A stretch of DNA of 35,190 nucleotides from Phycisphaera sp. (GTDB lineage Bacteria > Planctomycetota > Phycisphaerae > Phycisphaerales > Zrk34). Position numbers and translations under genes: made by a program. Of the stretch, positions 2,065-34,274 are shown piece after piece; position 1 is the first letter of the stretch, and each line of letters begins with the position of its first letter. The notes under the pieces were generated by a model that searched no databases, was not told the DNA's origin, and saw only the letters and a list, made by a program, of their open reading frames with translations. The DNA is taken from assembly GCA_016125285.1 (NCBI GenBank), contig WGMA01000077.1, forward strand, positions 1-35,190, given 5' to 3'.

Positions 2065-4131
2065 ATGTCGATCTTCTCCAGCCAGAACGATCCCGCGATG
2101 CCGGCGCCGCACGCCACGCAGGCCGAGGAACAGGCGATCCTCGACCAGGGCGAGCAGGACACGACGGCGCCGCTGCTGCCGACGGGCATGTGGCGGACGC
2201 TGGCGATGGACCTGCGCGCTCCGAAGATGCACAAGGGGCTCGACAAGGCGTGGTCGATCCTCGAATCGAAGGTGCAGGCGTGGGCGCCGCGCCGGACGAA
2301 GTTCATGTGGCGGGCGCGGCGGGTGCAGAAGCTGCAGTCACGGTTCGAGTCGTGCACCGAAGAGCAGCTGCGCGAGCACGCCGAGGACCTGCGTGCGTTG
2401 TTCCGCCGCAACCGCGACAAGCGGGCCGACATCGAGGCGGCGATGGCGCTGATCGGCGAGGTGGTGTACCGACGCATGGGCTTCCGTCTGCACCTCGTGC
2501 AGTTTGCCGCGGCGTTGGTGATGGAGTCGGGCGCCGTCGCGGAGCTGGCGACCGGTGAAGGCAAGACCGTCTCGGCCGTGATGCCCGCGGTGATCGGCGG
2601 CTGGCGCGGGCAGGGCTGCCACGTCATCACCGTCAACGACTACCTCGCCCAACGCGACGCCGAGTGGATGCAGCCGATCTACGGAAACCTCGGCGTGACC
2701 GTTTCGTTCATCACCGGCGAGTCGCAGCCGCACGAGCGCCGACAGGCGTACATGGCCGACGTGACGTACACGACGAACAAGGAAGTGACCGCCGACTTCC
2801 TGCGCGACCGCCTCGTGCTCGGGCGCGTACGCCGACTGCCCAGCGTGCTGCTGCACCGCATGGCCGACCGCGACAAGCCCGCCGGCGCCGACCGCATGGT
2901 GATGCGCGGCCTGGCCTGCGCGATCGTCGACGAGGCCGACTCCGTGCTGATCGACGAGGCGGTCACGCCGCTGATCATCTCCGGCGAGTCGCCCAACGCC
3001 GAGCAGGTCGAGTCGTTCTGCGAGGCCGCCGCCGCGGCGCGGGAGCTCGAGCCCGGCCGCGACTTCCGCATCGACCGCAAGTGGCGAGAGGTCCGCCTCA
3101 CGCGCCACGGCGAAGAGCGCACCGAGCAGTTGACGGCGCGTCACGGCGGCATCTGGCACGGCCGCCGTCGTCGCGAGGAACTCGTCACGCAGGCCCTCTC
3201 CGCCCGCGAGCTGTTCCTCAAGGGGCAGCACTACGTCATCCAGGAGGGCAAGGTCGTCATCGTTGACGAGTTTACGGGGCGACTCATGCCCGATCGCACC
3301 TGGCGCGACGGATTGCATCAGGCCGTCGAGGCGAAGGAAGGCCTCGAGGTCCAGCCGCCGAAGCAGACGCTCGCACGCGTCAGCTTCCAGCGGTTCTTCC
3401 GCACGTACCGAAAGCTGTCGGGCATGACCGGCACGATGTGGGAGAACAACGCCGAATTGTGGCAGACGTACCGCATCCCCGTCGTACGGATCCCGACGCA
3501 CAAGCCGTGTATCCGCCGCCAGCCGACCGATCGCGTGTTCACCAACGCGGACCGGCGATGGGAGGCGGTGGTCAAGGAAGTACAGCGGATTCACGCCGAG
3601 GGCCGTCCGCTGCTGATCGGCACGCGCAGCGTCGAGTCGTCCGAGCACCTCAGCACGCTGCTCGAGCGCGAGGGCCTGGCGCATCAGGTGCTCAACGCCG
3701 TGCGGCACGCCGAGGAAGCGGAGATCGTCGCGCAGGCCGGTCAGCCGGGCCACATCACGATCGCGACGAACATGGCTGGCCGCGGCACCGACATCAAGCT
3801 CGGCGAGGGCGTGCGAGAGCAGGGCGGTCTGGCGGTGATCGCCACCGAGCGTCACGAGTCCGGCCGCATCGACCGACAGCTGTTCGGCCGCGCCGGTCGA
3901 CAGGGCGATCCCGGCAGCGCGATTGCCATCATCAGCATCGACGACGAACTGTTTATGCGGTACGCCCCCGCGTGGATGCGCAGCCTCGCCCGCAGCACGC
4001 CGACGCTCGCCCACAGCGTGCGACGCATTGCCCAGGGACGCTCCGAACGCATGGCCCGTCGTCAGCGCGCCCAGGTGCTCGTCACCGACGACTGGCTCGA
4101 CGAAAACCTCTCCTTCGCACGCCCCGAGTAG
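2065..4131 (+). CDS. secA: SecA-family preprotein translocase ATPase, C-terminally short
   Basis: SecA motors push preproteins through SecYEG using ATP. The 688-residue protein has the SecA signatures: Walker A ATGEGKT (about 162-168), VNDYLAQRDAEWM, DEAD-type Walker B VDEADSVLIDEA (about 288-299) followed by TPLIISG, the preprotein-binding region (about 305-440) including VDEFTGR, then KLSGMTGT, TNMAGRGTDIKLG and GRAGRQGDPGS of the second RecA fold. It stops at DDWLDENLSFARPE, about where the long helical-scaffold helix and zinc-tail region would begin; housekeeping SecA proteins are usually about 850-1000 residues. An N-terminal extension of about 60 residues precedes the usual start of homology. 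It lies 12 bp downstream of the M50/HlyD fusion, which suggests a dedicated accessory SecA rather than the essential copy. The ATG at 2065 is the only good start after the upstream stop. The ATPase core is certain; the partnership is inference. Confidence 0.93.
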   Translation: MSIFSSQNDPAMPAPHATQAEEQAILDQGEQDTTAPLLPTGMWRTLAMDLRAPKMHKGLDKAWSILESKVQAWAPRRTKFMWRARRVQKLQSRFESCTEEQLREHAEDLRALFRRNRDKRADIEAAMALIGEVVYRRMGFRLHLVQFAAALVMESGAVAELATGEGKTVSAVMPAVIGGWRGQGCHVITVNDYLAQRDAEWMQPIYGNLGVTVSFITGESQPHERRQAYMADVTYTTNKEVTADFLRDRLVLGRVRRLPSVLLHRMADRDKPAGADRMVMRGLACAIVDEADSVLIDEAVTPLIISGESPNAEQVESFCEAAAAARELEPGRDFRIDRKWREVRLTRHGEERTEQLTARHGGIWHGRRRREELVTQALSARELFLKGQHYVIQEGKVVIVDEFTGRLMPDRTWRDGLHQAVEAKEGLEVQPPKQTLARVSFQRFFRTYRKLSGMTGTMWENNAELWQTYRIPVVRIPTHKPCIRRQPTDRVFTNADRRWEAVVKEVQRIHAEGRPLLIGTRSVESSEHLSTLLEREGLAHQVLNAVRHAEEAEIVAQAGQPGHITIATNMAGRGTDIKLGEGVREQGGLAVIATERHESGRIDRQLFGRAGRQGDPGSAIAIISIDDELFMRYAPAWMRSLARSTPTLAHSVRRIAQGRSERMARRQRAQVLVTDDWLDENLSFARPE

Positions 4132-10379: not shown

Positions 10380-11558
10380 TCACTCGCCGATGCGGTACCG
10401 GCTGCGATACTGTCCGGGCGTGACGCCGACCTTGCGCTTGAACAGCGAGTTGAGGTACTCGGCGTGCTTGAACCCCGCGAGTTCCGCGATCCGCGCGAGC
10501 TTGAAGTCGGTCTCGCTGAGCAGTAGTTTCGCCTTGTCGATCTGGACGCGAAGGATCTCGGCCTTGGGTGACCGGCCGATCAACTCGTTGAATCGCCGCT
10601 CGAGCGTGCTGCGCGACAATGTCAGGTGCGACAGCACCTGCTCGACCGTCAGTCCATCGCAGGCGTGCTCGCGTATGTAGCGCACGGCCTGTGCGATCTC
10701 GGGGTCGGCGATCGCCAGCACGTCGGTCGACTGACGTGTCACGGCCGCGATGGGATCGATGAGCGTGACGGCCTCTTCGGGCGCCTCGCCGCGCATCAGC
10801 CGGTCGAGCGTCGCGGCGGCGGTGTAGCCGATGCGTTCGGTGTCGAGTTCGATGCTCGACAGCGGCGGATCGCAGAGCTGACAGAGTTCCAGATCGTTGT
10901 CGACGCCGATGACCGCGATCTCGTCGGGGATCGCCACGCCCATGTCGCGACAGACCTCGAGGATCTGCTGGGCGCGCACGTCGTTGCACGCCATCACGCC
11001 CACCGGGCGCGGCAGGCTCTTGAGCCAGTCCGCGATCGCCTTCCACTGGCGCTCGCCGGGCGCCTCGAACGTCGGCGTCATCGCGTCTTCGGTGAACGAG
11101 CGCCCGTGAAACACGTGCACGTCGTGCCCGCTGGCCTTGAGCCGCTGCACGAAGCAGTCGCGTCGCCGGTCGGAGTACTTCACGCCGTTGAATCCACAGA
11201 ACGCGAAGTGTTCGAAGCCGCGCTCGCGGAGGTGATTCGCCGCAAGGTCGGACACCGCCTTCTCGTTGACGTCGACGATGGGGATGTTCTCGATCTCGTG
11301 CATACCGCGGACGTCGACGATCGGGACGTCGAGTTTCCGCAGCGAGCGGATGAGTTTCGGCGACTCAAGGCGGGCGATGATCCCGTCGCCGTCCCAGCCC
11401 CGCATCCAACGCGGGGCGTCGTCGGCGAGCATGCGTTCCTGATGGTAGATCGACCACGCGTCGTGCGTGCGGACGTACGCACCGATGCCGCGTAGCACGC
11501 CGCGCCCGTACCCGCGGGAAGACTCGACCAGCAACGCGATCTTGGGTCTCTTGGCCAT
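10380..11558 (-). CDS. XylR-type transcriptional regulator (LacI-like sensor plus AraC helix-turn-helix)
   Basis: 392 residues. Residues 5-275 resemble the periplasmic-binding-protein/LacI sugar-sensor fold (KIALLVESSRGYGRGVLRGIGAYV, VGVMACNDVRAQQILEVCRDMGV, IAVIGVDND). The last 100 residues are an AraC-type double helix-turn-helix (LTVEQVLSHLTLSRSTLERRF; LARIAELAGFKHAEYLNSLFKRKVGVTPGQYR). This architecture is that of E. coli XylR, a sugar-responsive activator. The start is ATG 11558 (MAKRPK), with AAAGG just upstream; the in-frame extension to 11600 has no support. It is divergent from the prepilin/sulfatase genes across 233 bp holding inverted repeats, and convergent with the oxidoreductase. 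Likely role: regulating the adjacent carbohydrate genes in response to a sugar. Confidence 0.93.
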   Translation of the reverse strand: MAKRPKIALLVESSRGYGRGVLRGIGAYVRTHDAWSIYHQERMLADDAPRWMRGWDGDGIIARLESPKLIRSLRKLDVPIVDVRGMHEIENIPIVDVNEKAVSDLAANHLRERGFEHFAFCGFNGVKYSDRRRDCFVQRLKASGHDVHVFHGRSFTEDAMTPTFEAPGERQWKAIADWLKSLPRPVGVMACNDVRAQQILEVCRDMGVAIPDEIAVIGVDNDLELCQLCDPPLSSIELDTERIGYTAAATLDRLMRGEAPEEAVTLIDPIAAVTRQSTDVLAIADPEIAQAVRYIREHACDGLTVEQVLSHLTLSRSTLERRFNELIGRSPKAEILRVQIDKAKLLLSETDFKLARIAELAGFKHAEYLNSLFKRKVGVTPGQYRSRYRIGE

Positions 11559-11624
11559 GTGCACCTTTGGCGGAAGAGGTCTGTGAATTGACGCAAACAT
11601 TCAGGCAGCCCAACGGCACGCCGC

Positions 11625-13477: not shown

Positions 13478-14986
13478 ATGACGAAGCTGAATCGCTGTTT
13501 GCCGACGCGTTGGGTGGGGATATTGATCGCACTGTGCGCGGCCTGCGTAATCGCGCCCGAACGTTCGGCGCATGGCGCCAGCGATCGCCCGCCGAACTTC
13601 GTGCTCATCTTCGCCGACGATCTGGGCTACGGCGATCTGGGTTGCTACGGCAGCGAGCTGATCCGCACGCCGCGCATCGATCGGATGGCGAAGGAGGGCA
13701 TGCGGTTCACGAATTTCTACGCCCAGCCGATCTGCGGACCCAGCCGCACGGCGATCATGACCGGCTGCTACCCGCTGCGTGTCGCCGAGCGGCACAACAT
13801 CAAGCAGATCCACCCGATCGTACACTCGAAGGAGATCACGATCGCCGAGGTGCTCAAGCAGAAGAACTACGCCACCGCGTGCTTCGGCAAGTGGGACCTG
13901 GCCAAGCACTCGCAGACCGATTTCTACCCCGAGCTGATGCCCAACCACCAGGGCTTCGATTACTTCTACGGCACGCCGACCAGCAACGACGCCTTCGCGA
14001 ACCTCTATCGCAATGAGGAGTTGATCGAGCCGAAGACAAATCTGTCGACCATCACTAAACGCTACACCGACGAGGCGATCGGTTTCATCGAGAAGCATCG
14101 CGACGAGCCGTTCTTCGTGTACCTGCCGCACTCGATGCCGCACGTGCGCCTCGCCGCGTCGGACGACTTCCGCGGCAAGTCGAAGCGCGGGTTGTACGGC
14201 GACGTCGTCGAAGAGCTCGATTTCAACGTCGGACGTCTGCTCGACGCGCTGGAACGCATGAAGCTCGTCGACAACACCTACGTGATCTTCACGTCGGACA
14301 ACGGGCCGTGGCTGATCAAGAACAAGGACCATCGCGACGGGATCGAGGACATCGACCACGGCGGGTCGGCCGGGCCGCTGCGCAGCGGCAAGGTGTCGAC
14401 GTGGGACGGCGGCGAGCGTGTGCCGTGCATCGTGTGGGCGCCGGGCCGCGTGCCCGCGGGAACGACGTGCGAGAATGTCGCGGCAACGATCGACATGCTG
14501 CCGACGTTCGCCGCGATGGCCGGCGCGTCGCCGCCGACGGATCGCGTGATCGACGGCGTGGACATCCGGCCGCTGTTTGCCGGCGAGTTCGACAAGGCCG
14601 ACCCCGAACGCGTGTTCTACTTCTATATGCTCAACCACCTGCGCGGCGTGCGCGTGGGGCAATGGAAGCTGCACGCGGCGATGCCGGAGCACCCCAAGTG
14701 GCTCGGGCCGTTCGCCGTCAACAAGCACATCGCGCCGGAGGACGACATCGGCTTCGCCAAGCCGGCGCTGTTCGACCTCGCGTCGGACATCGGTGAGACG
14801 CGTGATGTGGCGGCGGAGCACCCAGACGTCGTGAAGAAGCTTTCGGCGCTGCTGGACGCGGCGCGCGAGGATATCGGCGACTACGACCGCGTCGGCAAGA
14901 ACGCGCGGTTCTTCGATCCGTACGACGAGCGGCCGAAGGTGTTCGACACGGCGTACGCGGGTGGATCGCGCAGGCCGAAGGATTGA
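13478..14986 (+). CDS. Exported sulfatase (formylglycine-dependent), first of three
   Basis: 502 residues with a signal peptide (about 1-34, ending near AHGAS). Sulfatase signatures: metal Asp pair in FADDLGYGDLGCYG (D47, D48), the C86-G-P-S-R motif whose Cys becomes formylglycine, LPHSMPH, and TSDNGPW. The enzyme should hydrolyse sulfate esters, probably on polysaccharide, outside the cytoplasm. One oddity: the usual GKWHLG box reads GKWDLA, putting Asp140 where an active-site His normally sits. It is clearly related to the third sulfatase (shared CGPSR, MTGCYP, HSxEIT and PELMPN blocks), so they are likely duplicates. AGGAG lies 4 nt before ATG 13478. No formylglycine-generating enzyme is encoded in the window. 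Confidence 0.94.
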   Translation: MTKLNRCLPTRWVGILIALCAACVIAPERSAHGASDRPPNFVLIFADDLGYGDLGCYGSELIRTPRIDRMAKEGMRFTNFYAQPICGPSRTAIMTGCYPLRVAERHNIKQIHPIVHSKEITIAEVLKQKNYATACFGKWDLAKHSQTDFYPELMPNHQGFDYFYGTPTSNDAFANLYRNEELIEPKTNLSTITKRYTDEAIGFIEKHRDEPFFVYLPHSMPHVRLAASDDFRGKSKRGLYGDVVEELDFNVGRLLDALERMKLVDNTYVIFTSDNGPWLIKNKDHRDGIEDIDHGGSAGPLRSGKVSTWDGGERVPCIVWAPGRVPAGTTCENVAATIDMLPTFAAMAGASPPTDRVIDGVDIRPLFAGEFDKADPERVFYFYMLNHLRGVRVGQWKLHAAMPEHPKWLGPFAVNKHIAPEDDIGFAKPALFDLASDIGETRDVAAEHPDVVKKLSALLDAAREDIGDYDRVGKNARFFDPYDERPKVFDTAYAGGSRRPKD

Positions 14987-15029: not shown

Positions 15030-16454
15030 ATGAGTTTGCACGCGACATGGACGGCTGTGGTGTTGGCGGGGGTCGTCGCGTGCGCGGTACACGTGTCGGC
15101 GGCCGCGGCGGACAGACCGAACGTGATCGTCGTGCTTGCCGACGACCTGGGCTACGGCGACCTGGGCTGCTACGGCTCGCCGCGCCGCAACACGCCGCGG
15201 ATCGACCGCATGGCGGCGGAGGGCGTGCGATTCACCGATTTTCTCGCGGGATCGAACGTCTGCAGCCCGTCACGCGCCTCGCTGTTGACCGGTCGCTACC
15301 CGCAGCGTTGCGGCGTGCCGCTCGCGGTCAACATCGACCAGAAGCACTACGAATACGGCCTGAACCCCGACGAGATCACCCTCGCCGATCTGCTGCACGA
15401 CAACGGATACACCACCGCGTGTTTCGGCAAGTGGCACCTGGGCTACCGCGAGCGGCACCATCCCATCCACCAGGGCTTCGATCACTACTTCGGGATCATC
15501 TCGAACTACCACGTGACCCATAAGCTCCAGGTCGAAGAGAAGGTCGTCGAACCGAACGCGGACATCCACCTGATGACCAAGCGGCTGACCGACGAGGCGA
15601 TCGCGTTCATCGAAAAGAACCGCGATCGGCCGTTCTTCATCTATCTCGCGCATTACGCGATGCACAACCCGATCTCGCCGCATCCGGACTTCTCGCCGAA
15701 GGGCAGCAAGGACATCTACGGCGACTGGCTGGGCGAGTTGGACCACCGCGTGGGTGAACTGCTCGACGCGATCACGCGGCTCGGTCTCGACGAACGCACG
15801 CTCGTGGTGTTCACGTCGGACAACGGCCCGGTGCCACAGAGCAGTTCCGGCCCGCTCAGCGGCACGAAGTACACGACGCTGGAGGGCGGACATCGCGTGC
15901 CGTGCATCATGCGGATGCCGGGCCGGATCGCGCCGGGCGTGGTCGACGGCGCGACGACGTTGAATATGGACATCTTCCCGACTGCGGCGGGTGTCGCGGG
16001 CGTGGAGATGCCGACCGACCGTGTTTACGACGGCGTCGACCTGATGCCGCGGATCGGGGTCGGCGCCAAGCCGGAGCCCGCGGGTGACCGCGTGGTCTAC
16101 TATTACAGCGGCATCAATCTCCAGGCGGTACGGCAGGGCCAGTGGAAGCTGCATCTGCCCCGCACGAAGGATGACCAGCCGTTCTGGGGCACGACGCGCG
16201 GCTTGGTCGAACTCGCCGAGCCGCGGCTGTTCAACCTCGGCACGGACATCGGCGAAAAGCAGGACGTGGCCGGCGCGAACCCCAAGATCGTCGCGGCGTT
16301 AGAAGCGGTCGCGGATCAGGCACGCGAGGAACTGGGCGACGTGAACACGCCGGGTCGCGATGCACGCTCAACCGGCGTGGATGACCCGCAGCACCTGTCG
16401 AGTTTCGGCAAGCCGAAGAAGGCGCCTCGGAAGAAGACGGAACCTACAAACTAA
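15030..16454 (+). CDS. Exported sulfatase (formylglycine-dependent), second of three
   Basis: 474 residues with a signal peptide (about 1-27, AAAADRPNV). The catalytic motif is C78-S-P-S-R, with LADDLGYGDLGCYGSPRRNTPRIDR before it, an intact GKWHLG box (about 133-138) and FTSDNGPVPQ. It is more distant from the first and third copies, so it probably has a different substrate. The C-terminus ends in a basic, Lys-rich tail. The start is ATG 15030 with GAGGA 7 nt upstream; the longer in-frame ORF from 14961 overlaps the preceding gene and lacks a signal peptide at its end. It lies 43 bp after the first sulfatase. Confidence 0.94.
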   Translation: MSLHATWTAVVLAGVVACAVHVSAAAADRPNVIVVLADDLGYGDLGCYGSPRRNTPRIDRMAAEGVRFTDFLAGSNVCSPSRASLLTGRYPQRCGVPLAVNIDQKHYEYGLNPDEITLADLLHDNGYTTACFGKWHLGYRERHHPIHQGFDHYFGIISNYHVTHKLQVEEKVVEPNADIHLMTKRLTDEAIAFIEKNRDRPFFIYLAHYAMHNPISPHPDFSPKGSKDIYGDWLGELDHRVGELLDAITRLGLDERTLVVFTSDNGPVPQSSSGPLSGTKYTTLEGGHRVPCIMRMPGRIAPGVVDGATTLNMDIFPTAAGVAGVEMPTDRVYDGVDLMPRIGVGAKPEPAGDRVVYYYSGINLQAVRQGQWKLHLPRTKDDQPFWGTTRGLVELAEPRLFNLGTDIGEKQDVAGANPKIVAALEAVADQAREELGDVNTPGRDARSTGVDDPQHLSSFGKPKKAPRKKTEPTN

Positions 16455-16485
16455 TTGACACCAGCGGATGACAGTAAGGAAAGCC

Positions 16486-19400
16486 ATGAAAGCCATACTC
16501 CGAATCGTAATCTTTGCCGTGATGTTGCTAGCGAGCGGCGGCGTCGCCTCGGCGGCGGACAAGCCGAACATCGTGCTCATCTTCTTTGACGACCTGGGCT
16601 ACGGTGATCTGAGCTGTTTCGGATCGAACGAGACGCCGACGCCGCGCATGGACCGTATGGCGTCAGAGGGCATGCGGCTGACGAGCTTCTACGCACAGAA
16701 CGTGTGCGGACCGAGCCGTGCTGCGCTGATGACGGGGTGCTACCCGATCCGCGTCGCCGAGCCGCAGAACCACAAAAACCCGCACACGGTGGTCCATTCG
16801 CAGGAGATCACCGTCGCGGAAGTGCTCAAGGGCGCCGGCTATGCGACGGGGATGTTCGGCAAGTGGCACAGCGGCGGCAGCGGGGCGAACAAGCACGGCC
16901 AGGGCACCGGTCCGTTCGATCCGGAACTGATGCCCAACGCGCAGGGTTTCGATTACTGGTTCGGCACGCCGCTGCACAACGGCTATACGCGCGAGCCCGG
17001 CAAATTCAAGGTTGAACTCCAGCGGAACGGCGAGGTGCTCGAGGAATCGACGGACGTCGACATGCTGACGAAGCGCGAGACCGACGAGGCGCTCGCGTGG
17101 ATCAAGGCTCACGCGAAGGGCGACAAGCCGTTCTTCGCGTACGTGCCCTACAACATGGTACACGTCGTGCTCGGCGCGTCGGAGCAGTTCCGCGGCACGA
17201 CGAAGCGCGGCGTGTTCGGCGATGCGATCGCGGAGCTGGATTACAGCGTCGGACGGATCCTCGATACGCTCAAGGAACTCGGCGTCGACGACAACACGCT
17301 GGTGGTGCTGACGTCGGACAACGGCCCGTGGGTCGAGGGACACCTGGCGGGCAAGACGCCGGCGGACAATCACTACGGCAGCGCGGGTCCGCTGCGCGGG
17401 TCGAAGATGATGACGTGGGAGGGCGGGCTGCGTGTGCCGGCGATCGTGCGCGGGCCGGGCAAGGTGCCGGCGGGCGTGACACGTGACGGGATCGTCACGA
17501 CGATGGACCTGCTGCCGACGTTCGCGAGCGTCGCGGGCGTTGCGCCGCCGAGCGATCGCAAGCTGGACGGCGTGGACGTCTCGGGCTATCTGCTCGGCAA
17601 GTCTGACACGTCGCCGCGTGACACGTTCTACTACTACGGCTGGACATACCTGCAGGCGGTGCGGCAGGGCGATTGGAAGCTGGTGCTGCCGCGGCCGGCG
17701 CATCCGAAATGGACGTCGTGGTACGCCCGGATGATCGACGAGGTGCCCGCGCCGCAGTTGTACAACCTCGCGTCGGACATCGGCGAGGAGCACGACGTGG
17801 CGTCGGCGAATCCGGAAATCGTGGCACGGCTGACGAAGCTCGTGGAGAGCGTGCGTGACGACCTGGGCGACTACAACCGCGTCGGCAAGGGGGCGCGGTT
17901 CTACGACCCCGGCGAACACCGGCCGGAGGTTGAAAAGTGGGCGAACGTGACCGTGCAGGTCAACGCGTCACCCGCGCCAGGTGCGGCGCGGCATGCGGTG
18001 ACGGCGGCGGCGGTGTCGGTGAGCGACGCCGCCGATGCGGCGAGCGCCGGATCGCTGCGGTTCGACTTCGAGTCGGGCGACATGCAGGGCTGGCGGGTGG
18101 TCGATGGCGGGTTTGAGGCGCTGATCAACGATCGTGACAAGTTCCACAACACCGGCAAGCCGTACAACAAGCAGGGCAAGTGGTACCTGTCGACGCTGGA
18201 GACGCGGGGCGATCGCGGCAACGACAACCAGACCGGCGTGGTGGATTCGCCGGTGTTCCGCGTCAACGGCGATCACGCGTCGCTGCTGGTCGGCGGCGGG
18301 GCGCACGAAGACACCTACGTCGCGATGGTCGACGCGGCGACGAACAACGAGGTCATGACGGCTCGCGGCGACAACACCGAGACCATGAAACGCGTCACGT
18401 GGGAGACCGGCACGCTCAAGGGCAAGCTGGTTTACCTGCGCGTCGTCGACCAGAACCACGGCGGCTGGGGACACGTGACGCTCGACGACTTCTCGATCGA
18501 CGGCACGATTGACGAAGAGGCGACGAAGAAACACTTCGCGGCCGTGAAGGCGACGCCGCCGACGGTCGTGGTGTCGAGGGCGCCCGCGGCGAAGCCGGTC
18601 CCGTCGACGCCCGCGGTGCCCGACGCGGCGCCGCCGGTCGAGACCGACATCACGCACGGCTTTTTGGCCACCGGCGGCGAGACGTACATCCTCGACACGC
18701 ATGGCAAAGAGGTCTGGCGCTACAACGGCGCGACGCGCGACGGCTGGGTCCTTGACAGCGGCAACGTGCTGCTCGCGGTGAATCCCGGCAAGGGCTTCCC
18801 CGGCGGCGGTATCGTCGAGGTGACGCGGGAGGGCGAGGTCCTCTGGTCGTGGAAGGGACTGCAGAAGGAGACGCAGGCGGTCGAACCACTGGCGAACGGA
18901 CACGTGCTGGCGGTCGAGGGCGGCAATAGCCCGCGTCTGGTCGAGCTCGAACGCGACGGTTCCGGCGCGAAGGTGGCGCTGGAGTTCCCGCTGCAGTGCC
19001 AGACGGACAACACCCACATGGAGACCCGCATGGCGAGGAAGCTGCCGAACGGCAACTACCTGGTGCCGCACCTGCTCGACTTCGCGGTCAAGGAATACGA
19101 CCCGAAGGGCAACGTGGTGAAGGTGCTGCGGACGGATCTCAACGGACGCGAGGTGCACGATTGGCCGTTCACCGCGATCCGCCTCGACAACGGCAACACG
19201 CTGATCGGCTGCACGCACGGCAACAAGGTCATCGAGCTCGACCCCGACGGACGGCTCGTGTGGCAGGTCACCAACGAAGACCTCGGCGGAAACTACATCA
19301 AGGACGCGTGCGGCGTGCAGCGCCTGCCCAACGGCAACACCGTCATCACCGCGTACGCCTCGCACGGTAAGGCGGTGAAGCTGATCGAGGTCACACGCGA

Positions 19401-19506
19401 GAAGAAGATCGTCTGGACGTGGTCCGACGACAAGGGCCACGGCATACACGACTTCCAGATCCTGGATACGAACGGCAAGAAGCTGACGGACGCCACGATG
19501 AAGTAG
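16486..19506 (+). CDS. Three-part exported protein: sulfatase, GH32-associated-type beta-sandwich, beta-propeller
   Basis: 1006 residues. Signal peptide about 1-24. Sulfatase domain about 25-490 with C74-G-P-S-R, FDDLGYGDLSCFG, GKWHSG and TSDNGPW. At about 520-680 comes a beta-sandwich (LRFDFESGDMQGW, LLVGGGAHEDTYVAMV, GGWGHVTLDDFSIDG) like the module that accompanies GH32 levanases. After a Pro/Ala-rich linker, about 720-1000 is a beta-propeller with repeated GEVLWSWKG / NGNTLIGCTHGNKVIELDPDGRLVWQV blades, resembling PQQ-type or arylsulfotransferase-like propellers. Ordinary sulfatases are about 450-550 residues, so this is an unusual fusion. The start is ATG 16486, with TAAGGA 5 nt upstream; ATG 16468 is in frame but overlaps the region before that site. 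Propeller function is unknown. Confidence 0.9.
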   Translation: MKAILRIVIFAVMLLASGGVASAADKPNIVLIFFDDLGYGDLSCFGSNETPTPRMDRMASEGMRLTSFYAQNVCGPSRAALMTGCYPIRVAEPQNHKNPHTVVHSQEITVAEVLKGAGYATGMFGKWHSGGSGANKHGQGTGPFDPELMPNAQGFDYWFGTPLHNGYTREPGKFKVELQRNGEVLEESTDVDMLTKRETDEALAWIKAHAKGDKPFFAYVPYNMVHVVLGASEQFRGTTKRGVFGDAIAELDYSVGRILDTLKELGVDDNTLVVLTSDNGPWVEGHLAGKTPADNHYGSAGPLRGSKMMTWEGGLRVPAIVRGPGKVPAGVTRDGIVTTMDLLPTFASVAGVAPPSDRKLDGVDVSGYLLGKSDTSPRDTFYYYGWTYLQAVRQGDWKLVLPRPAHPKWTSWYARMIDEVPAPQLYNLASDIGEEHDVASANPEIVARLTKLVESVRDDLGDYNRVGKGARFYDPGEHRPEVEKWANVTVQVNASPAPGAARHAVTAAAVSVSDAADAASAGSLRFDFESGDMQGWRVVDGGFEALINDRDKFHNTGKPYNKQGKWYLSTLETRGDRGNDNQTGVVDSPVFRVNGDHASLLVGGGAHEDTYVAMVDAATNNEVMTARGDNTETMKRVTWETGTLKGKLVYLRVVDQNHGGWGHVTLDDFSIDGTIDEEATKKHFAAVKATPPTVVVSRAPAAKPVPSTPAVPDAAPPVETDITHGFLATGGETYILDTHGKEVWRYNGATRDGWVLDSGNVLLAVNPGKGFPGGGIVEVTREGEVLWSWKGLQKETQAVEPLANGHVLAVEGGNSPRLVELERDGSGAKVALEFPLQCQTDNTHMETRMARKLPNGNYLVPHLLDFAVKEYDPKGNVVKVLRTDLNGREVHDWPFTAIRLDNGNTLIGCTHGNKVIELDPDGRLVWQVTNEDLGGNYIKDACGVQRLPNGNTVITAYASHGKAVKLIEVTREKKIVWTWSDDKGHGIHDFQILDTNGKKLTDATMK

Positions 19507-19586: not shown

Positions 19587-22500
19587 ATGACCATCATGGC
19601 ACGCCACACCACGATCTTGAGTGCGATCGCGACCGTAACCCTGTTTTCGGCGGGTGCTTGGGCTACCAAGCCCGACGCCGCGTCGCTGGAGTTCTTCGAG
19701 ACCAGCGTGCGGCCCATCTTCGCCGACCATTGCTACGAGTGTCACGGGGCGCACAAGCAGAAGTCCGGCCTGCGCCTCGATCACATCAGCCTCATCCTCA
19801 AGGGGGGCGACAACGGCCCGGCGATCACGCCCGGTCGCCCCGACGCCAGCCGCATGATCGAGGCGATCAGCTATACGAACGTCGATCTGCAGATGCCGCC
19901 GAAGACGGGCAAGATATCCGACGCCGAGATCGCGACGCTGACAAAGTGGGTGGCGATGGGGGCGCCGTGGCCGGACGAGCCGGTGCCGAGCGCGGACAAG
20001 TCGGGCAAGACGTTCGACCTCGAGGCTCGGAAGGCGGCGCACTGGTCGTGGCGACAGGTCACCAAGCCCGAGTTGCCGACGGTCAAGCTCGCCGACTGGC
20101 CGACGAACGCGATCGACCGGTTCATCCTCGCGAAGCTGGAAGAGAAGGGGCTGACGCCGGCCGCGCCCGCGGAGCGTCGCACGCTGATCCGTCGGCTCTA
20201 CTTCGACATCACCGGCCTGCCGCCGTCGCCCGACGAGGTCGACGCGTTCGTCGGCGACACGGACCCGAAGGCGTATGAGAAGCTCGTGGACCGCCTGCTG
20301 GCGAGCCCCGCTTACGGCGAGCGCTGGGCGCGGCACTGGATGGACCTGGTGCGTTACGCCGAGTCGCGCGGGCACGAGTTCGACTACGACGCGGCCAACG
20401 CGTGGCAGTACCGCGACTACCTCATCCGTGCGTTCAACGCCGACGTACCGTACGACCAGTTCGTCACCGAGCACATCGCCGGCGACCTGATGCCGCAGCC
20501 GCGCACCAACCCGCAGCAGGGCTTCAACGAGTCGATCCTCGGCACAGGCTTCTGGTACCTCGGCGAGTGGGTTCACAGCCCGGTCGACATCCGCAAGGAC
20601 GAGACCGACCGCTTCGACAACATGGTCGACGTGATGACCAAGACGTTCACCGGCCTGACGGTGCACTGCGCCCGCTGTCACGATCACAAGTTCGACGCGA
20701 TCGGCACGGCCGACTACTACGCGTTGTTCGGCTACCTCCAGTCGACCAGCTACCGACAGGCGCGGTTCGACACGCTGGATCACAACCGCGGCGTTGCGCA
20801 GCGGCTGGCCGACCTGCACGAGCAGCGCGACGGCGAGCTACGACGGGCGACCGTCGAGGCGATGCGGCCGACACTCGCGAAGCTCGACGCGTATCTCGCA
20901 GGGGCGGTGGAGGCCTGGGCGTCGAATCCGGTAGCGGCTGTCGGTGAGACGCCGGACGCGAACAAGCCGCGCGCAGACATCGTCTACGACGACTTCGAAC
21001 TCGGGTCGCTCGACGAGTCGAAGTGGAGCGCGCATGGCAAGGCGTTCGGGCAGGGCCCGGTCGCCGGCACGCTGCCGAATCAGCAGGCCGTCAGCGGATT
21101 CCTCGGCAAGTATCTGATCAACACGTACGTCGGCGGCGATGACAGCACGGGCATCGCGACGTCCAAGCCTTTCACGATCGACCGCCGCTACGTCCGCTTC
21201 CTCATCGGCGGCGGAGCGCACAAGGACGAGACGTGCCTGAACCTTGTCGTCGGGCGCAAGGTCGTGCGGACCGCGACCGGCAAAGAGAACGAGCGGCTGG
21301 ACCCGCAGGCGTGGGACGTGAGCGACCTGATCGGCCAGCAGGCGCAGCTGCAGATCGTCGATCGTCGCAAGGGGCCCTGGGGTCACATCAACGTCGACCA
21401 CATCGTGTTCAGCGACACGACCGACGCGCCGGTGCAGGCCTCGGACCTGAAGATCACCAAGGCGCCCGACGACGCGACCGTCGTCCAGGTCGCACGTCGA
21501 CGCAATCTCGACGTCGCGCTGCTCAAGCGGTGGGCGGCGTATCTCGACGATGCGGCCGAGCACCCCGAAGATCCGCTGTACGCGTTCGCCAACGCGGCGC
21601 TGCGGCGGGGCGGCAACGTTACGGCGACGGTCGAGCCGCTCGTCAAGAAGTGGCGTGATCTCGATGCGGCCTACGCGCGATCGCTCGAGGCGGCCAACGC
21701 CTCGGTCGTCGTCGACTACGGTGAACTGTCGGCCGACCACTGGCTGCAGGACGGCTCGGCGTACGGCACGCGGCCGAAACGCCCCGGCGACGTGCAGATC
21801 GGCAACGACCCCACGCGGCCGATCGAACGCGTGTTCGACGCGGGTATGGCGTCGCGCCACCCGGCGTGGTCGAAGCTGAAGTGGGCGCCCGGCACGGAGG
21901 GGGAACCCGGCAGGCTCGGGTTCGAGAAGTACGGCCAGATGCTCCGCACGCCGACCTACGACCTGCGATCGGGCCGCGTGTACTACCTCGTGCGTGGCAA
22001 GGGCACGGCGTTCGCCGCCGTCGACTCCCACCGCATGGTGCAGGGCCCGCTGCACGGCGAGACGGTCGCGCATTTCGACACAAAGGGCAAGTGGCAGTGG
22101 TTCTCCAGGCAACTCGACCGCTACAAGGACCACCGCATCCACACCGAATTCGTTCCCGATGGCGACGAGCCGTTCGAGGTCCGCAAGGTTGTCGTCGCCG
22201 ACAACAACCCGGACGTCACCGACGACGCGAATGACGTGCTGCTCGGCATGATGACCAGCGGGGCGGCGAAGTCGCTCGACGCGCTCGCCGCGGGCTATCG
22301 CGACACGCTGTTGAGCGTCGCGGGTCGGTTCGCCGACGGCCGCCTCGCCGGGACGCGTGACGGCGAGGACGTCGCGGCGCTGGCCGACTGGCTCGTCGGT
22401 CACAGCGAGCTGTTCTACAACACCAGCGACGCGGCGGCGCAGGCGCTGGCGGGCATCGCCAAGCCGATCGTCGACGAGCACACCCGCGTGCTGGCGGACT

Positions 22501-23584: not shown

Positions 23585-25057
23585 ATGAGCAAGCATTCGC
23601 CATACCCCTGCAACCGACTCCGCCCCGCGCCGCTGTCGCGTCGTGACCTGCTGCGTCAGTGCGCCGCGGGCTTCGGCACGGCGGCGTTGACCGGCCTGAT
23701 GTCGAGCAAGGCATTCGGCGGCGCGGTCTCCGCGAGCCTCACCGACGACGAGATCCGCAAGCACGAGCCGTTTGCCCCGCGCCGGCCTCACTTCACGGCC
23801 AAGGCGACCAGCGTCATCTTCCTCTACATGGACGGCGGGCCGAGCCAGGTCGACACCTTCGACCCCAAGCCGCGCCTCCAGGCCGACGACGGCAAGCCCT
23901 TCGCGATGAAGATGGAGCCCACGCAGTTCAACAACAACGGCAACACGCTCGGATCGCCGTGGAAGTTCAAGAACCACGGCCAGTCCGGCATCCCCGTCAG
24001 CTCGCTGTTCCCCAACGTCGCCAAGCACGTCGACGACATGGCGATCATCCGCTCGATGACCTCGCTGTTCAACGAGCACACCAACGCGAACTACTTCCTG
24101 CACACCGGCATCGGCGTGCAGGGACGCCCGAGCATGGGCGCGTGGGTGACGTACGGCCTCGGCAGCGCGTGCGAGAACCTGCCCGGTTTCGTCGTGATCA
24201 ATACCGGCCTCACGCCGCCCGGCGGCCTGGATAACTTCAACAGCGGCTTCCTGCCCGCGACGTATCAGGGCTCGGTGTTCCGCCCGCAGAACCCGCCCGT
24301 CGCCAACATCCGCCGCACCGAGGCGACCGAGCAGCAGCAGCTCAACAAACTCGCGCTGATGCGCCAGCTCGACGGCGAGGTGCTCGAACGCATGGGACGC
24401 ATCGACCCGCTCGAGTCCGCGATCGCCAACTACGAGATGGCCTTCCGCATGCAGGCCGCCGTGCCGGACCTGATGGACTTCTCCGACGAGCCGCAGCACA
24501 TCAAGGAGATGTACGGCCTGGAAACGAAGACGAAGGGCACGGCGCAGTTCGGCACGGGTTGCCTGATCGCTCGCCGCCTCGTCGAGCGCGGCGTCCGCTT
24601 CATCGAGCTGACGTGCCCGTCGATCGGCCACGACCGATGGGACCAGCACGGCGGCCTCAAGGCGGGGCACGCCGACAACGCGATGGCGACCGATCAGCCG
24701 ATCGCGGCGCTGCTGGCCGACCTCAAGCAGCGCGGCATGCTCGACGAGACGCTGGTGATCTGGTCCGGCGAGTTCGGCCGCACGCCATTCGCGCAGGGCA
24801 AGGACGGCCGCGACCACAACCCGTACGGCTTCACGTCGTGGATGGCCGGCGGCGGCGCGAAGGGCGGCACGATCTACGGCGAGACCGACGAGTACGGCTA
24901 CAAGGCCGTGCGCGACAAGGTCGAGATCTACGACCTGCACGCCACCATGCTGCACCTGCTCGGCGTCGACCACACGCGACAGACCTTCCGCTACTCCGGC
25001 CGCGACATGCGCCTCACCGACGTGCACGGCGAACTGATCGACGGCGTCATCGCGTGA
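23585..25057 (+). CDS. DUF1501 protein with twin-arginine signal
   Basis: 490 residues. Twin-arginine signal LSRRDLLRQ (Arg 19-20) followed by a hydrophobic Ala/Gly stretch. DUF1501 hallmarks: SVIFLYMDGGPSQVDTFDPKP, GIPVSSLFPNVAKHVDDMAIIRSM, TANYFLHTG-like region, WSGEFGRTPFAQGKDGRDHNPYGFTSWMAGGGAKGG. The family belongs to the alkaline-phosphatase/sulfatase-like fold and is almost always encoded next to a PSD1 gene, as here (50 bp downstream). Partner function with the PSD1 cytochrome protein is inferred from that constant pairing; no reaction is established that I know of. The ribosome site is weak. Confidence 0.92.
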   Translation: MSKHSPYPCNRLRPAPLSRRDLLRQCAAGFGTAALTGLMSSKAFGGAVSASLTDDEIRKHEPFAPRRPHFTAKATSVIFLYMDGGPSQVDTFDPKPRLQADDGKPFAMKMEPTQFNNNGNTLGSPWKFKNHGQSGIPVSSLFPNVAKHVDDMAIIRSMTSLFNEHTNANYFLHTGIGVQGRPSMGAWVTYGLGSACENLPGFVVINTGLTPPGGLDNFNSGFLPATYQGSVFRPQNPPVANIRRTEATEQQQLNKLALMRQLDGEVLERMGRIDPLESAIANYEMAFRMQAAVPDLMDFSDEPQHIKEMYGLETKTKGTAQFGTGCLIARRLVERGVRFIELTCPSIGHDRWDQHGGLKAGHADNAMATDQPIAALLADLKQRGMLDETLVIWSGEFGRTPFAQGKDGRDHNPYGFTSWMAGGGAKGGTIYGETDEYGYKAVRDKVEIYDLHATMLHLLGVDHTRQTFRYSGRDMRLTDVHGELIDGVIA

Positions 25058-27180: not shown

Positions 27181-28656
27181 TCACGCCATCACGCCTTCCG
27201 CGACCACGCCGTGCACGTCGGTCAGGCGGTAGTCGCGTCCCTGGAAGCGGAACGTCAGCCGCTCGTGGTCCATGCCCATCAGGTGCATGATCGTGGCGTT
27301 GAAGTCGTGCACGTGCATCGCGTCGCGCACGGGCGCGTAGCCGAAGTCGTCGGTCTCGCCGTAGATGTGCCCGCCCTTCACGCCGCCGCCCGCCATCCAC
27401 ACGCTGTACGCTTCCTTGTGGTGGTCGCGACCGACGGACGTCTTCTTGCCCTCGCCGTTGTTGCCCTGCGCCATCGGCGTCCGCCCGAACTCCGCCGACC
27501 ACACGATCAGCGTGTCGTCGAGCATGCCGCGCTGCTTGAGGTCCTTGATCAGCGCCGCGATCGGCTGGTCGACCTGCGCCGTCTTCTTCGGCAGCGATCC
27601 GAACACGCTGCCGTGCATGTCCCAGCCCTGGTCGAACAGCTGCACGAACCGCACGCCGCGCTCCACCATCCGGCGCGCCAGCAGGCAGTTGTTCGCGAAG
27701 CTCGTCTTGCCCGGCGCCGTGCCGTACATCTCGTGGATGTGCTTCGGCTCGTGCGAGATGTCCATCAGCTCCGGCACCGACGTCTGCATGCGGTAGGCCA
27801 TCTCGTACTGCGCGATGCGCGTGGCGATCTCCGGGTCGCCCACGTCCGCGAGCTGCGCCTTGTTGAGCACGTTGACCGAGTCGATGATCCGCCGACGGTC
27901 GCCGGAGTCGATGCCGCTGGGGTTCGACAGGAACAGCACCGGGTCGCCCTGGCTGCGGAACTCGATGCCCTGGTACACCGTCGGCAGGAACCCGCTGCCC
28001 CACGCGCTGTTGCCCGCGCCGAGCACCTGCCCCGTCACCATCACCACGAAGCCCGGCAGGTTCTGGTTCTCGCTGCCCAGCCCGTACGTCGCCCACGAGC
28101 CGATGCTCGGCCGGCCGAACCGGTTGAAGCCCGTCAGCAGGAACATCTGCGCCGGCGCGTGGTTGAACTGGTCCGTGTGCAGCGTCTTGATCACGCACAT
28201 CTCGTCGGCCACCGTCTGCAGGTGCGGCAGCAGGTTCGACAGCGGGATGCCCGACTCGCCGCACCGGCTGAAGTTGAACTTCTTGTCGGTCGGCGTGCCC
28301 AGCAGCGTCGGCTGCTCGCGGATGAACGCCAGCTGCTTGCCCTTGAAGAACTCGTCCGGGCACAGCTCGCCGTTGCGCTGCTGCAGCACCGGCCGGTAGT
28401 TGAACAGGTCCAGGTGCGACGGCGCGCCGACGAGATGGATGTAGATCACGCTCTTCGCCCGCGCCGGAAAGTGCGAAGGCTTCGGCGTCATCGGCGACTC
28501 ATGGACGAAGCGCTTGTGCGCGGGCGCCGCGATCAGGTCCTTCGCCAGCAACGACCCCAACGCCGCGCCGCCGATGCCCATGCCGAGGCGCTGAAACATC
28601 TGGCGGCGGGCCATATCGATTGTGGATTTCGGAGTTCGGATTTCGGATTGGTTCAT
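27181..28656 (-). CDS. DUF1501 protein, last gene of the ECF-sigma operon
   Basis: 491 residues. DUF1501 landmarks: [98 protein letters not shown] and [18 protein letters not shown] signal-like stretch [23 protein letters not shown] follows the start, with a twin Arg. It is only moderately similar to the copy at 23585-25057. The start is taken as ATG 28656, with GGTG 6 nt upstream; GTG 28665 and ATG 28614 are possible. Oddity: the first dozen residues before MARRQ are encoded by one arm of an inverted repeat (28618-28649). It follows the PSD1 gene by 128 bp and is presumably its partner. Confidence 0.92.
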
Positions 28657-28781
28657 GTCGTTCACCGTTCCTGTTTAGCGACGACCCGCAGGCTGTGTGT
28701 CGTCGGATCTTTGTTGTGCCTTATATGGTCGAACCTCGGCGGGATTTCAAATCCGAAATCCGCAATCCGAAATCCGCAATC
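28618..28781. repeat. Inverted pair of 32-bp repeats around a gene junction
   Basis: The 32 bp at 28618-28649 match the reverse complement of 28750-28781 at 29 positions. Each arm is built from short units of the type GGATTTCGGATT. The left arm lies inside the start of the DUF1501 gene; the right arm begins 3 bp after the PSD1 stop codon. In RNA the arms could form a long hairpin with a loop of about 100 nt. The low-complexity units recall A+T-richer extragenic repeats often found between planctomycete genes (recollection, not searched). Confidence 0.8.
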
Positions 28782-28784
28782 AAA

Positions 28785-31700
28785 TCACCCCTTGGTGACG
28801 GTCTCATCCAGGTTCAGCAGCACGTTCGCCACGCGGAACCACGCCGCGAGTTCGACGTGGTCGAGCTGCTTCGGCGGCGTGTAGCCCTTGACGGTGCGGA
28901 TCAGCTCTTCGGCTTCCTTCGGCGACTTCTTGAGCTGCGCCAGCTCGCGCTCGTACACGCCGGCCAGGTGCTCGGCCTCGAACGACGTCGGCTCGCGGAC
29001 CAGCACGCGGCGGAAGGCGTAGGTGACCTTGTCACGCGTGTCGGCGCCGGCGCGGTCCTGCATCACGCGTGCCGCGAGGGCCAGGCCCATCTCCACGTAC
29101 GCCTCGTCGTTCAGCAGGGTCAGCGCCTGCAGCGGCGTGTTGGTGCGGGCGCGGTTGGGCACGCACGCGGCCCGGTCGGGCGCGTCGAAGTTCACCATGC
29201 TCGGGTACGGCGCCGCACGCCGCCAGATCACGTACACGCCGCGGCGGAAACGATCCTCACCCGTTGACGTGTTGAACTTCGGTTCGTTGCGGCCGACCTG
29301 TCGCCAGATGCCCGGCGGCTGTGGCGGGTACACAGGCTCGCCGTACATCTTCTCGCTGAGCAGGCCGCTGACCCGCAGCGCCGAGTCACGGATCTGCTCG
29401 GCGGACAGGCGGAACCGCGGCCCGCGGGCGTACAGCAGGTTCACCGGGTCGCGCTCGACGAGCTCCGGCGTCACCTTCGACGACTGGCGGTACGCGGCCG
29501 ACATCGCGATCAGCTTGTGCATGTGCTTCATCGACCAGCCGGACTCGATGAACTCCACCGCCAGCCAGTCGAGCAGCTTCGGGTGCGTCGGCGGCTCGCA
29601 CTGCGTGCCGAAGTCTTCCTGCGTGGCGACGATGCCGCGGCTCATGAACGCCGCCCACCAGCGGTTGACCGTCACCCGCGCCGTCAGCGGGTTCTCCGGG
29701 CTCATCAGCCACTGCGCAAAGCCCAGGCGGTTCTTCGGCAGGTCCGGGTCGAGCGGATGCAGCGTCGCGGGCGTGCCGGGCTCGACCTCCTGGCCCGGGT
29801 GCAGGTAGTTGCCGCGCATCATCACGTGCGTCTCGCGCGGCTTGTCCATCTCCACCATCACCAGCGTCGTGGGCGGCTCGATGTTGTCCAGCTCACGCTT
29901 CACCGCCTCCATCTCCGAGCGGATCTTGTCGGCGACGGGGTTGGCCTTCGCGTAATAATCGTCGATAACCTTCTGTTCCTTCTTCGACCGCTTGTCGTCC
30001 TTCATCAGAAGGGTGGCGACCTCCTTCGGCAATCCCAATGCGTCGCCCGAGCCGGTCAACGCGGACAGACGCAGTCGTCCGATGACCCGGCCGCGGCCGA
30101 AGTTCTGGTCGAGCGTGAAGGTGAGCACCGTCTCGCCGCCGTCGGCGTTCAGCGGCTTGTCGGTCTGGAAGGTCGCCCAGTGCGGTTTGTGGAACTGGTC
30201 GGCGATCGCCCAGCCGGTCTTGCCGTTGCCGTCGATGAGGCCGCCGACGTCCCAGTTCGGCTGGCTGTAGTCGGCGCGGGGGTCGGTGAGCTTGACGGGC
30301 GCCGCCTTGCCGGGCGTCTTCGCCGTCGCCGCGGTGACGGTGAACTCGTTGAGCACGAAGTTGCTCCGCTCCTCGTCGCCGCGCCCGGGCCCCTTGCCGG
30401 GCAGGCTGTCGTCGGTGAGGGTCTCGATCTTGAAGCCGGTGATGTTCGTCAGCGAGGTCTGGGCGGTGAAGGTGTAGACGGTGGTGCCCGGCACGGTGCC
30501 GCCCAGCAGCACCGATCCGTCGTCGAGCACCTCGTACGTCTCGCCGCCGGTGGTCTCGAACGCCGCGGGTCGGAGCGTCGTCCACTTGGGCGGGTGGCGC
30601 AGCGCCTCGGCGGCGTCGCGTTCCCAACGCTTCTGATCGGCCGCGGCCTGCGTCGTCGCCGCGTCGTACTTCGCCTTCAGCGCCGCGTATTTGCCGTGCA
30701 GGTCCGCGTACTTGCCGCGCTGCTGCTCGGGCAGCGGCAGGGCCATCTTCGGCCCGACAAAATCGAACGTGACGCCCGCCTTCTGCTTGACCTCCAGCGG
30801 CGTGTTGTTGAAGTACGCGAACAGCTGGTAGTACTCGTTCTGCGTGAACGGATCGTACTTGTGGCTGTGGCACTGGCAGCACTCGATCGTCGTGCCGAGC
30901 CAGACCGTGCCGGTCGTGTTGACGCGGTCGAACACCTGGTTCGTGCGATTCTCTTCGGGATGCACGCCCGCCTCGACGTTGCACGTCGTGAGCCGGTGGA
31001 ACCCCGTGGCGACGCGCGTGTCGACCGTCGCGTCCGGCAGCAGATCACCGGCCAACTGATCGATCGTGAACTCGTCGAACGGCATGTCCGCGTTCATCGC
31101 CTTGATCACCCAGTCGCGATACGCCCAGTTCTCGCGGATCTGGTCGGCCTGGAACCCGTTCGAGTCCGCGTAACGCGCCAGATCCAGCCACTGCCGCGCC
31201 CATTTCTCGCCGTAGCGCGGCGAGGCCAGCAGGCGGTCGACCACCTTCTCGTAAGCTTCGGGCGATTGGTCGGCGAGGAACGCGTCGGCTTCTTCCGGCG
31301 TCGGCGGGATGCCGATCAGGTCGAGGTACACGCGCCGAAGCAGCTTCGCGGGGTCTTCCTCGCGGCTGGGCGTCAGCTTCTCGGCGTCGAGCCGCGCCAG
31401 CACGAAGCGGTCGATCGGCGTGCGGCACCACGACGCGTCGCTCACCGCCGGCAGCTCCGGCCGCACCGGCTTGATGTACGCCCAGTGCTTGCGATGCGAT
31501 CCGTCGTCCGGCCACACCGCGCCCTCCTTGATCCAACGACGCAGCAGGTCGACCTCCTCGGCCTTCAGCGGCGCCTTGCTCGGCGGCATACGCTCGTCGT
31601 CGTCCTGCAGCGTGAGCCGACGGATCATCTCCGACGCGTCGGGATCGCCCGGCACGATCGGCTTGTGCGCCAGATCGCTCTCGGTCATCGCCGCGGCGCG

Positions 31701-31913
31701 ATACGTCAACAACACGCCGCCCTTACGCTTCTCGCGGCCGTGGCATTTCATGCACTGCGCGTCGAGCAGCGGCTTGATGTCACGCGCGAAGTCGACCGGC
31801 TCGACGGCGCGCGCCGTCGGCGTCAGCACGGTCAGCATCGTCAGCGACAGCGTTGTCGCCGACAGCAGCGTCGTGAGCGGGGTGTTACGGAGGCAGCGCA
31901 TGATCTGAGTCAT
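28785..31913 (-). CDS. PSD1 / planctomycete cytochrome C protein (PSCyt1-DUF1549-DUF1553)
   Basis: 1042 residues. Signal peptide about 1-36 (PTARAVEP). PSCyt1 with haem motif C54-M-K-C-H and RMPPSKAPL; DUF1549 at about 160-370 (PIDRFVLARLDAEKLTPS, RVYLDLIGIPPTPEEADAFLAD, QWLDLARYADSNGFQ) with a second CxxCH in CCQCHSHKYD (about 345); a middle beta-rich part, roughly 430-630, with discoidin-like features (TNITGFKIETLTDDSLPGKGPGRGDE); DUF1553 at about 730-1035 (ARVTVNRWWAAFMSRGIVATQEDFG, MSAAYRQSS, NTPLQALTLLNDEAYVE). Its middle differs from that of the other PSD1 protein, which carries a GH32-associated-type module, so the two pairs probably handle different targets. The start is ATG 31913 with GAGG 8 nt upstream. 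It sits 9 bp after the FecR-like gene, in the same operon. Confidence 0.93.
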   Translation of the reverse strand: MTQIMRCLRNTPLTTLLSATTLSLTMLTVLTPTARAVEPVDFARDIKPLLDAQCMKCHGREKRKGGVLLTYRAAAMTESDLAHKPIVPGDPDASEMIRRLTLQDDDERMPPSKAPLKAEEVDLLRRWIKEGAVWPDDGSHRKHWAYIKPVRPELPAVSDASWCRTPIDRFVLARLDAEKLTPSREEDPAKLLRRVYLDLIGIPPTPEEADAFLADQSPEAYEKVVDRLLASPRYGEKWARQWLDLARYADSNGFQADQIRENWAYRDWVIKAMNADMPFDEFTIDQLAGDLLPDATVDTRVATGFHRLTTCNVEAGVHPEENRTNQVFDRVNTTGTVWLGTTIECCQCHSHKYDPFTQNEYYQLFAYFNNTPLEVKQKAGVTFDFVGPKMALPLPEQQRGKYADLHGKYAALKAKYDAATTQAAADQKRWERDAAEALRHPPKWTTLRPAAFETTGGETYEVLDDGSVLLGGTVPGTTVYTFTAQTSLTNITGFKIETLTDDSLPGKGPGRGDEERSNFVLNEFTVTAATAKTPGKAAPVKLTDPRADYSQPNWDVGGLIDGNGKTGWAIADQFHKPHWATFQTDKPLNADGGETVLTFTLDQNFGRGRVIGRLRLSALTGSGDALGLPKEVATLLMKDDKRSKKEQKVIDDYYAKANPVADKIRSEMEAVKRELDNIEPPTTLVMVEMDKPRETHVMMRGNYLHPGQEVEPGTPATLHPLDPDLPKNRLGFAQWLMSPENPLTARVTVNRWWAAFMSRGIVATQEDFGTQCEPPTHPKLLDWLAVEFIESGWSMKHMHKLIAMSAAYRQSSKVTPELVERDPVNLLYARGPRFRLSAEQIRDSALRVSGLLSEKMYGEPVYPPQPPGIWRQVGRNEPKFNTSTGEDRFRRGVYVIWRRAAPYPSMVNFDAPDRAACVPNRARTNTPLQALTLLNDEAYVEMGLALAARVMQDRAGADTRDKVTYAFRRVLVREPTSFEAEHLAGVYERELAQLKKSPKEAEELIRTVKGYTPPKQLDHVELAAWFRVANVLLNLDETVTKG

Positions 31914-31922
31914 AAGTAAACC

Positions 31923-33620: not shown

Positions 33621-33656
33621 GATTGCTTGCGTTGCCGCGTCATCGCGGCGTGTCGT

Positions 33657-34205: not shown

Positions 34206-34268
34206 TACCACCTCCGTCACCCTGAAACTGCACGAAACCGCGACGTGTGAACATCCCCGCTGAAAAAA

Positions 34269-34274
34269 ATTGTA
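34269..34274 (-). promoter_or_regulatory. Extended -10 promoter of the ECF-sigma operon
   Basis: Read on the minus strand, TGG-TACAAT is a near-consensus extended -10 element. No good -35 is visible at 17 bp, which extended -10 promoters tolerate. Initiation near 34262 gives a leader of about 57 nt before TTG 34205. An ECF-type autoregulated promoter could also be present but I cannot identify one. Confidence 0.45.

Follow-up and report, generated by a model that had tools for sequence, protein, structure and literature searches.

By domain and residue tests, one gene of the planctomycete Phycisphaera sp. encodes a complete FGly sulfatase, for which sulfate ester hydrolysis is predicted, followed in the same frame by a jelly-roll module and a six-bladed propeller (Table 1; positions refer to the window, i.e., the whole stretch of 35,190 nucleotides of contig WGMA01000077.1 that was analyzed). 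Profile comparison makes the propeller a remote homologue of arylsulfate sulfotransferase (ASST), with a site that is conserved and yet is not the ASST site, and planctomycetes have fused it to sulfatases and to other enzymes repeatedly. On balance, with modest confidence and on computation from sequence throughout, we suggest that this propeller is a recurrently recruited partner in the breakdown of sulfated glycans, its conserved pocket binding sugar near the sulfatase. A preliminary description of the window had proposed a normal-length sulfatase, a GH32-associated-type module and a propeller within one gene, and the single open frame, the Pfam matches and the predicted folds all agree with it.

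Table 1. Features of the fused gene and of its neighbors in the window
Feature	Position	Strand	Basis
Secreted sulfatase of 502 aa (50% identity with the sulfatase domain of the fused gene)	13478..14986	+	PF00884 E 1e-59; blastp
Secreted sulfatase, 474 aa, 41% identical, ending 13 bases before the fused gene	15030..16454	+	PF00884 E 1.5e-63; gap
Whole gene, 1012 codons: sulfatase, jelly-roll module, six-bladed propeller	16468..19506	+	Single open frame; Pfam; uniform GC3; alternative start 16486
Putative signal peptide, about residues 1-30, end ASA-AD	16468..16557	+	Sequence reading; inference
FGly sulfatase domain, residues 33-470	16564..17877	+	PF00884 E 7e-55; Sulfatase_C; solved sulfatases, E down to 1e-66; motif positions
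Ala/Ser-rich linker, residues 481-530	17908..18057	+	Sequence
Jelly-roll (MAM/CBM-like) module, residues 531-690	18058..18537	+	Model pLDDT 85; 8xmz Z 11.0; MAM and CBM61 Z 9-10; same module on GH32 proteins
Pro/Ala-rich linker, residues 691-722	18538..18633	+	Sequence; GC 0.82
Six-bladed propeller, residues 723-1012	18634..19503	+	Model pLDDT 80, 24 strands; 3no2 Z 26.1; Cpz4/ASST Z 22.9; conservation in 85 orthologues
PSCyt1-PSCyt2-module-PSD1 protein, 1315 aa	19587..23534	+	Pfam; module match
Second jelly-roll module copy, inside the PSD1 protein	20997..21449	+	28% identical to the first copy; profile E 1.6e-61 (the copy itself is in the profile)
DUF1501 protein	23585..25057	+	PF07394 E 6e-147

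The frame reads through its 1012 aa without interruption. Met7, the start at 16486 that the preliminary description took, is a reasonable one and may be the true one, because AAGGAAGG lies directly upstream of its codon. Secretion of the whole sulfatase-module-propeller protein is predicted. GC content (0.64-0.65) and GC3 (0.88-0.91) stay even over all three domains and match those of the neighboring genes, so no chimeric join is visible. That separate genes were wrongly joined during assembly has, in our judgment, a negligible probability. Such an error would fit with the complete three-part form being met in the source genome alone, and with a relative (G004) that carries sulfatase and propeller as separate genes, but the frame stays open through two domain linkers at even GC3, and sulfatase-propeller, module-propeller and sulfatase-module fusions are all present on other assemblies. 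We discarded an artifact between two genes, which the preliminary description had named as the possible undoing of its claim, on the fusions in other genomes (three of them with sulfatase-propeller proteins), the separate neighbors in G004 and the even GC3.

The sulfatase part matches PF00884 over the full length of the model (1-301 of 301; residues 33-358) and Sulfatase_C at residues 382-467, and it aligns with about 60 solved sulfatases. The motif C80-G-P-S-R84 (CGPSR) is present, as are D41, D42, K132, H134, H232, D284, N285 and K313, which we take to hold the metal-binding and catalytic roles typical of the family. The source genome contains eight matches to PF03781, the family of the formylglycine-generating enzyme (FGE), although this Pfam family is broader than true FGE; 165 places in the same genome match the query, mostly other sulfatases.

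No Pfam model covers residues 520-690. Structure prediction for residues 524-695, with a model built from four sequences, gave a jelly-roll, and in the fold search its best match was the porphyran-binding CBM 8xmz, followed by MAM domains, gingipain adhesin domains, CBM61 (Z 9.6) and CBM16. Searches of the module against solved structures by sequence and by profile returned no credible relative. Since MAM and other non-CBM domains score about as high as the CBMs in the fold comparison, carbohydrate binding by the module is only likely. The module profile is present in 38 of 149 planctomycete genomes, and the closest relative of the module in the window is one fused to a propeller in another genome (L160, 52% identical). 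GH32 domains occur in half of the module-bearing proteins scanned (5/10), the other hosts carrying GH116, GH43-type, phosphatase-type or DUF7133 domains; several genomes have sulfatases with the module fused to them, and it is present on the PSD1 protein encoded by the next gene, where the second copy lies between the PSCyt2 and PSD1 parts. The link to fructan-cleaving GH32 enzymes made in the preliminary description holds, but its label was too narrow: the sulfatase, GH116, DUF7133 and PSD1 hosts rule out a module specific to fructan enzymes. The same description had sulfate removal coupled to substrate binding; the sulfatase is indeed joined to a CBM-like jelly-roll in an arrangement that recurs, and such coupling is plausible.

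The propeller has one propeller-type Pfam match (PF22701, residues 781-961, E 7e-10), and its predicted structure, modeled from two sequences only, arranges the strands into six four-stranded blades. Cpz4 (9kf6) and Escherichia coli ASST, the latter aligned over 268 residues, are among its top structural matches. A profile of the orthologues aligned with true planctomycete ASSTs at an hhalign probability of 99% and in the same N-to-C register, ASST position numbers having been checked by aligning one planctomycete ASST to 3elq. H850 is thereby paired with ASST H356, E852 with N358 and H868 with R374, and non-histidine residues stand at the propeller position aligned with His252. Only His356 (as H850) is thus retained from the sulfuryl-binding set of ASST, which we take to be His252, His356, Asn358 and Arg374. 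At the place of His436, the catalytic residue that is transiently sulfated in ASST (PMC13426309), the propeller has Thr902, invariant in 85 orthologues, with no conserved histidine nearby. Because His436 and His252 are both replaced, the former by an invariant threonine, we conclude from the alignments that the site is not that of ASST. The propeller also misses both ASST cut-offs in Pfam (PF05935, 21.3 versus 24.2 bits; PF14269, 24.7 versus 27 bits).

It is very improbable, then, that the propeller works as ASST does, by PAPS-independent sulfuryl transfer, and that the protein moves sulfate instead of releasing it. The profile homology, the rank of ASST and Cpz4 in the structural search and the H850 counterpart of H356 would all suit such an enzyme, but the two lost histidines and the missed cut-offs argue against it, and the structural score is level with that of unrelated six-bladed propellers (megalin, Z 22.8, versus 22.9). 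As for redox chemistry, the Pfam scan gave no PQQ family for the fused protein or its propeller, and one propeller relative narrowly passes PQQ_2/BamB (28.9 versus 27.6). PQQ dehydrogenases are eight-bladed propellers; the six blades found here, together with the empty PQQ scan, leave PQQ redox unsupported. We rejected ASST and PQQ activity alike, given the residues, the number of blades and the scores relative to the Pfam cut-offs. Where the preliminary description had seen PQQ/arylsulfotransferase-like blades and a possible second chemistry, sulfuryl transfer or redox, the ASST relationship therefore stands, the PQQ part falls, and neither chemistry is borne out; the search for active-site residues that it had proposed recovered a single ASST histidine. 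An ASST-like fold beside sulfatases need not imply sulfotransfer.

The residues that the propeller does conserve are of another kind. Across 85 orthologues H730, E801, E817, R823, H850, R854, R857, T902, R905, C948 and H994 are near-invariant, and among these H850, R854, R857, T902, C948 and H994 are invariant and R905 is kept in 99%. H850, R854, R857 and R905 are also kept in nearly all of 14 distant paralogues; E852 is Q in most relatives, and position 868 is H or Q. From the blade register and the homology to ASST we infer that these residues share one central, cationic pocket. A propeller with no ligand pocket, the other outcome feared in the preliminary description, does not fit with so many invariant residues of pocket type.

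We searched for the propeller in four overlapping samples of planctomycete genomes (41, 392, 397 and 397 genomes). Most copies are stand-alone frames of 300-380 aa, with about 50-60% identity, and the complete three-part form was found in the source genome only. Sulfatase-propeller fusions occur in three further planctomycete genomes: L269 (903 aa), L270 (795 aa) and L272 (833 aa), whose sulfatase domains are, respectively, 34%, 26% and 50% identical to that in the window. On the question of how widespread the fusion is, the answer is thus that sulfatase-propeller proteins are recurrent. Other fusion partners of the propeller are a GDSL esterase (L271, L277), ThuA (L165), a metallo-beta-lactamase fold (L276) and the module alone (L160). 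Parsimony on a tree of 99 propellers gives eight partner changes, four of them to sulfatase, the supports of the sulfatase fusions being moderate (0.79-0.88). Two further long frames (L273, 1368 aa; L274, 542 aa) were rejected as fusions: they are upstream extensions in GC-rich DNA, and each has a signal-peptide-like start ahead of the propeller. In three related genomes, a frame of 857-892 aa with a distant propeller paralogue lies just before the orthologous propeller gene (L283:1818-5455, L284:4630-8204, L288:180-3706).

In G004, which belongs to the same family as the source, the orthologues of the sulfatase (62%) and of the propeller (61%) are separate neighbors with overlapping frames, in the same order and without the module. 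G377, too, has a related sulfatase ahead of a separate propeller, and the sulfatase of the L272 fusion is 72% identical to the G377 one. Judging from these two pairs of separate neighbors and the L272 likeness, sulfatase genes of one subfamily have probably fused with adjacent propeller genes on two or more occasions. Our literature search, which covered the field in part, found no report of sulfatase-propeller fusions or of this propeller family, and we provisionally regard the fusions as previously unreported. Multi-sulfatase proteins were also seen: two genomes, one of Verrucomicrobiales, have sulfatase-module-sulfatase, and a further genome has two sulfatases in tandem (L272:2627-6394, L011:5881-9336, L158:6679-9831).

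The stand-alone genes provide a second view of the partners. Among 66 such loci, eight have a same-strand sulfatase within 300 bases, seven adjoin a PSD1 or DUF1501 gene, and 51 have neither. Sulfatases elsewhere in the flanks of these loci number 21 in 704 kb, which gives an enrichment of the adjacent slot of roughly five- to tenfold, a rough estimate in which some loci come from one genus and not all are independent. The window has both types of partner, two sulfatases upstream of the fused gene and PSD1, then DUF1501, downstream. Two loci (L149, L151) show a cluster of four genes, one for a sulfatase-module protein, two for sulfatases and one for a stand-alone propeller, that mirrors the three sulfatase genes of the window. 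In Verrucomicrobia, PSCyt genes with sulfatases nearby and PSCyt proteins with CBMs have been reported, with no function assigned (PMC5615132). Elsewhere in the window, a second PSD1/DUF1501 pair lies on the minus strand (27181-34301) behind a FecR-type protein and a sigma-70-type factor; an AraC-type regulator with an XylR-like sugar-binding part (10380-11600, minus strand), upstream of the cluster, is a candidate regulator; and a 688-aa SecA-like protein (2065-4131), beside a multi-pass membrane protein that resembles part of an exporter, may be a second, specialized SecA.

Because fusion and adjacency recur, we suggest that the propeller, secreted sulfatases and certain other hydrolases all work in one process. 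In our preferred reading, the protein would be a secreted sulfatase of the FGly type, acting on a sulfated glycan, that has gained two C-terminal domains, of which the jelly-roll would most likely keep the enzyme on the polysaccharide. The other would come from a planctomycete family of normally small secreted proteins, encoded in some of the genomes in the same kind of glycan-breakdown clusters and fused several times to varied secreted enzymes. Its central site, presumably lined by H850, R854, R905 and H994 with E852 and H868 beside them, would most likely bind an anionic or newly desulfated sugar, next to a sulfatase that makes or uses such sugar. The complete set of sulfatase residues, the FGE-family matches, the separate neighbors in G004 and G377, the repeated fusions, the stand-alone loci that adjoin a sulfatase or PSD1/DUF1501, the CBM/MAM-like fold and the invariant pocket-type residues count for this reading. 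Against it stand the 51 of 66 stand-alone loci with no sulfatase, PSD1 or DUF1501 gene in the adjacent slot, the metallo-beta-lactamase and ThuA fusions, which widen the possible partners beyond sulfated glycans, a nearest solved relative (3no2) with no known function and the moderate tree supports.

Two other explanations of the propeller were weighed. The propeller could itself be an enzyme of non-ASST chemistry (e.g., a lyase, epimerase, lactonase or hydrolase) that acts on the sugar before or after desulfation, making the protein a two-step catalyst. This we consider possible, although rather unlikely: the stand-alone form is the commonest and stays about 50-60% identical across families, residues of polar, catalytic-site type (H850, R854, T902, R905, H994) are invariant, and the partners (sulfatase, GDSL esterase, ThuA) belong to carbohydrate-type pathways, but it has no close relative among characterized enzymes, 3no2 again offers no function, no catalytic set is recognized, and specific binding would also explain the invariance. 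A still bolder proposal, which we put forward as speculative and slightly more doubtful, is that the propeller founds an enzyme family that shares an ancestor with the PAPS-independent sulfotransferases, has a different active site, acts in one step on sugars that are sulfated or newly desulfated and was welded many times by planctomycetes to sulfatases and other hydrolases. It is improbable that the propeller is instead a protein-docking domain that ties secreted enzymes to a complex at the surface, which may include PSD1/DUF1501 proteins. Propellers often scaffold complexes, the partners are enzymes of unrelated chemistry, and stand-alone copies adjoin PSD1/DUF1501 in seven loci, but the best-conserved residues are polar ones on the inner strands, at blade positions that face the channel, as they do in ASST. 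Sulfatase sets of planctomycetes are very large, and their partners are mostly uncharacterized; that one conserved propeller has been joined to different sulfatases again and again points directly to a component still missing from the picture of sulfated-glycan breakdown, and, since the protein commonly stands alone, testing it is easy.

Each part of the protein has known counterparts. The catalytic domain and the CxPSR motif are as complete as in the FGly (type S1) sulfatases of PF00884, such as GalNAc-6-sulfatase (4fdi) and arylsulfatase A (1auk), whereas here a jelly-roll and a propeller come after the catalytic domain. The module belongs to the same family as the N-terminal jelly-roll of planctomycete GH32 proteins, but lies here between sulfatase and propeller, and the family is also found on GH116, DUF7133, PSD1 and other proteins. 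The planctomycete pairs of PSCyt/PSD1 and DUF1501 genes adjoin the fused gene here and some stand-alone propellers elsewhere, a link that we did not find in the papers searched. The nearest solved relative of the propeller, 3no2 (BACCAC_01654 of Bacteroides caccae; sequence E 1e-14), has the HxxxR motif of blade 3 in common with it, but stands alone and lacks equivalents of H868 and R905 in the alignment. ASST (3elq/3ets) and Cpz4 (9kf6) are likewise six-bladed, in the same N-to-C register and with H356 at the place of H850, from which the propeller differs in lacking the His436 nucleophile and His252, in having H868 for R374 and in scoring under the Pfam cut-offs.
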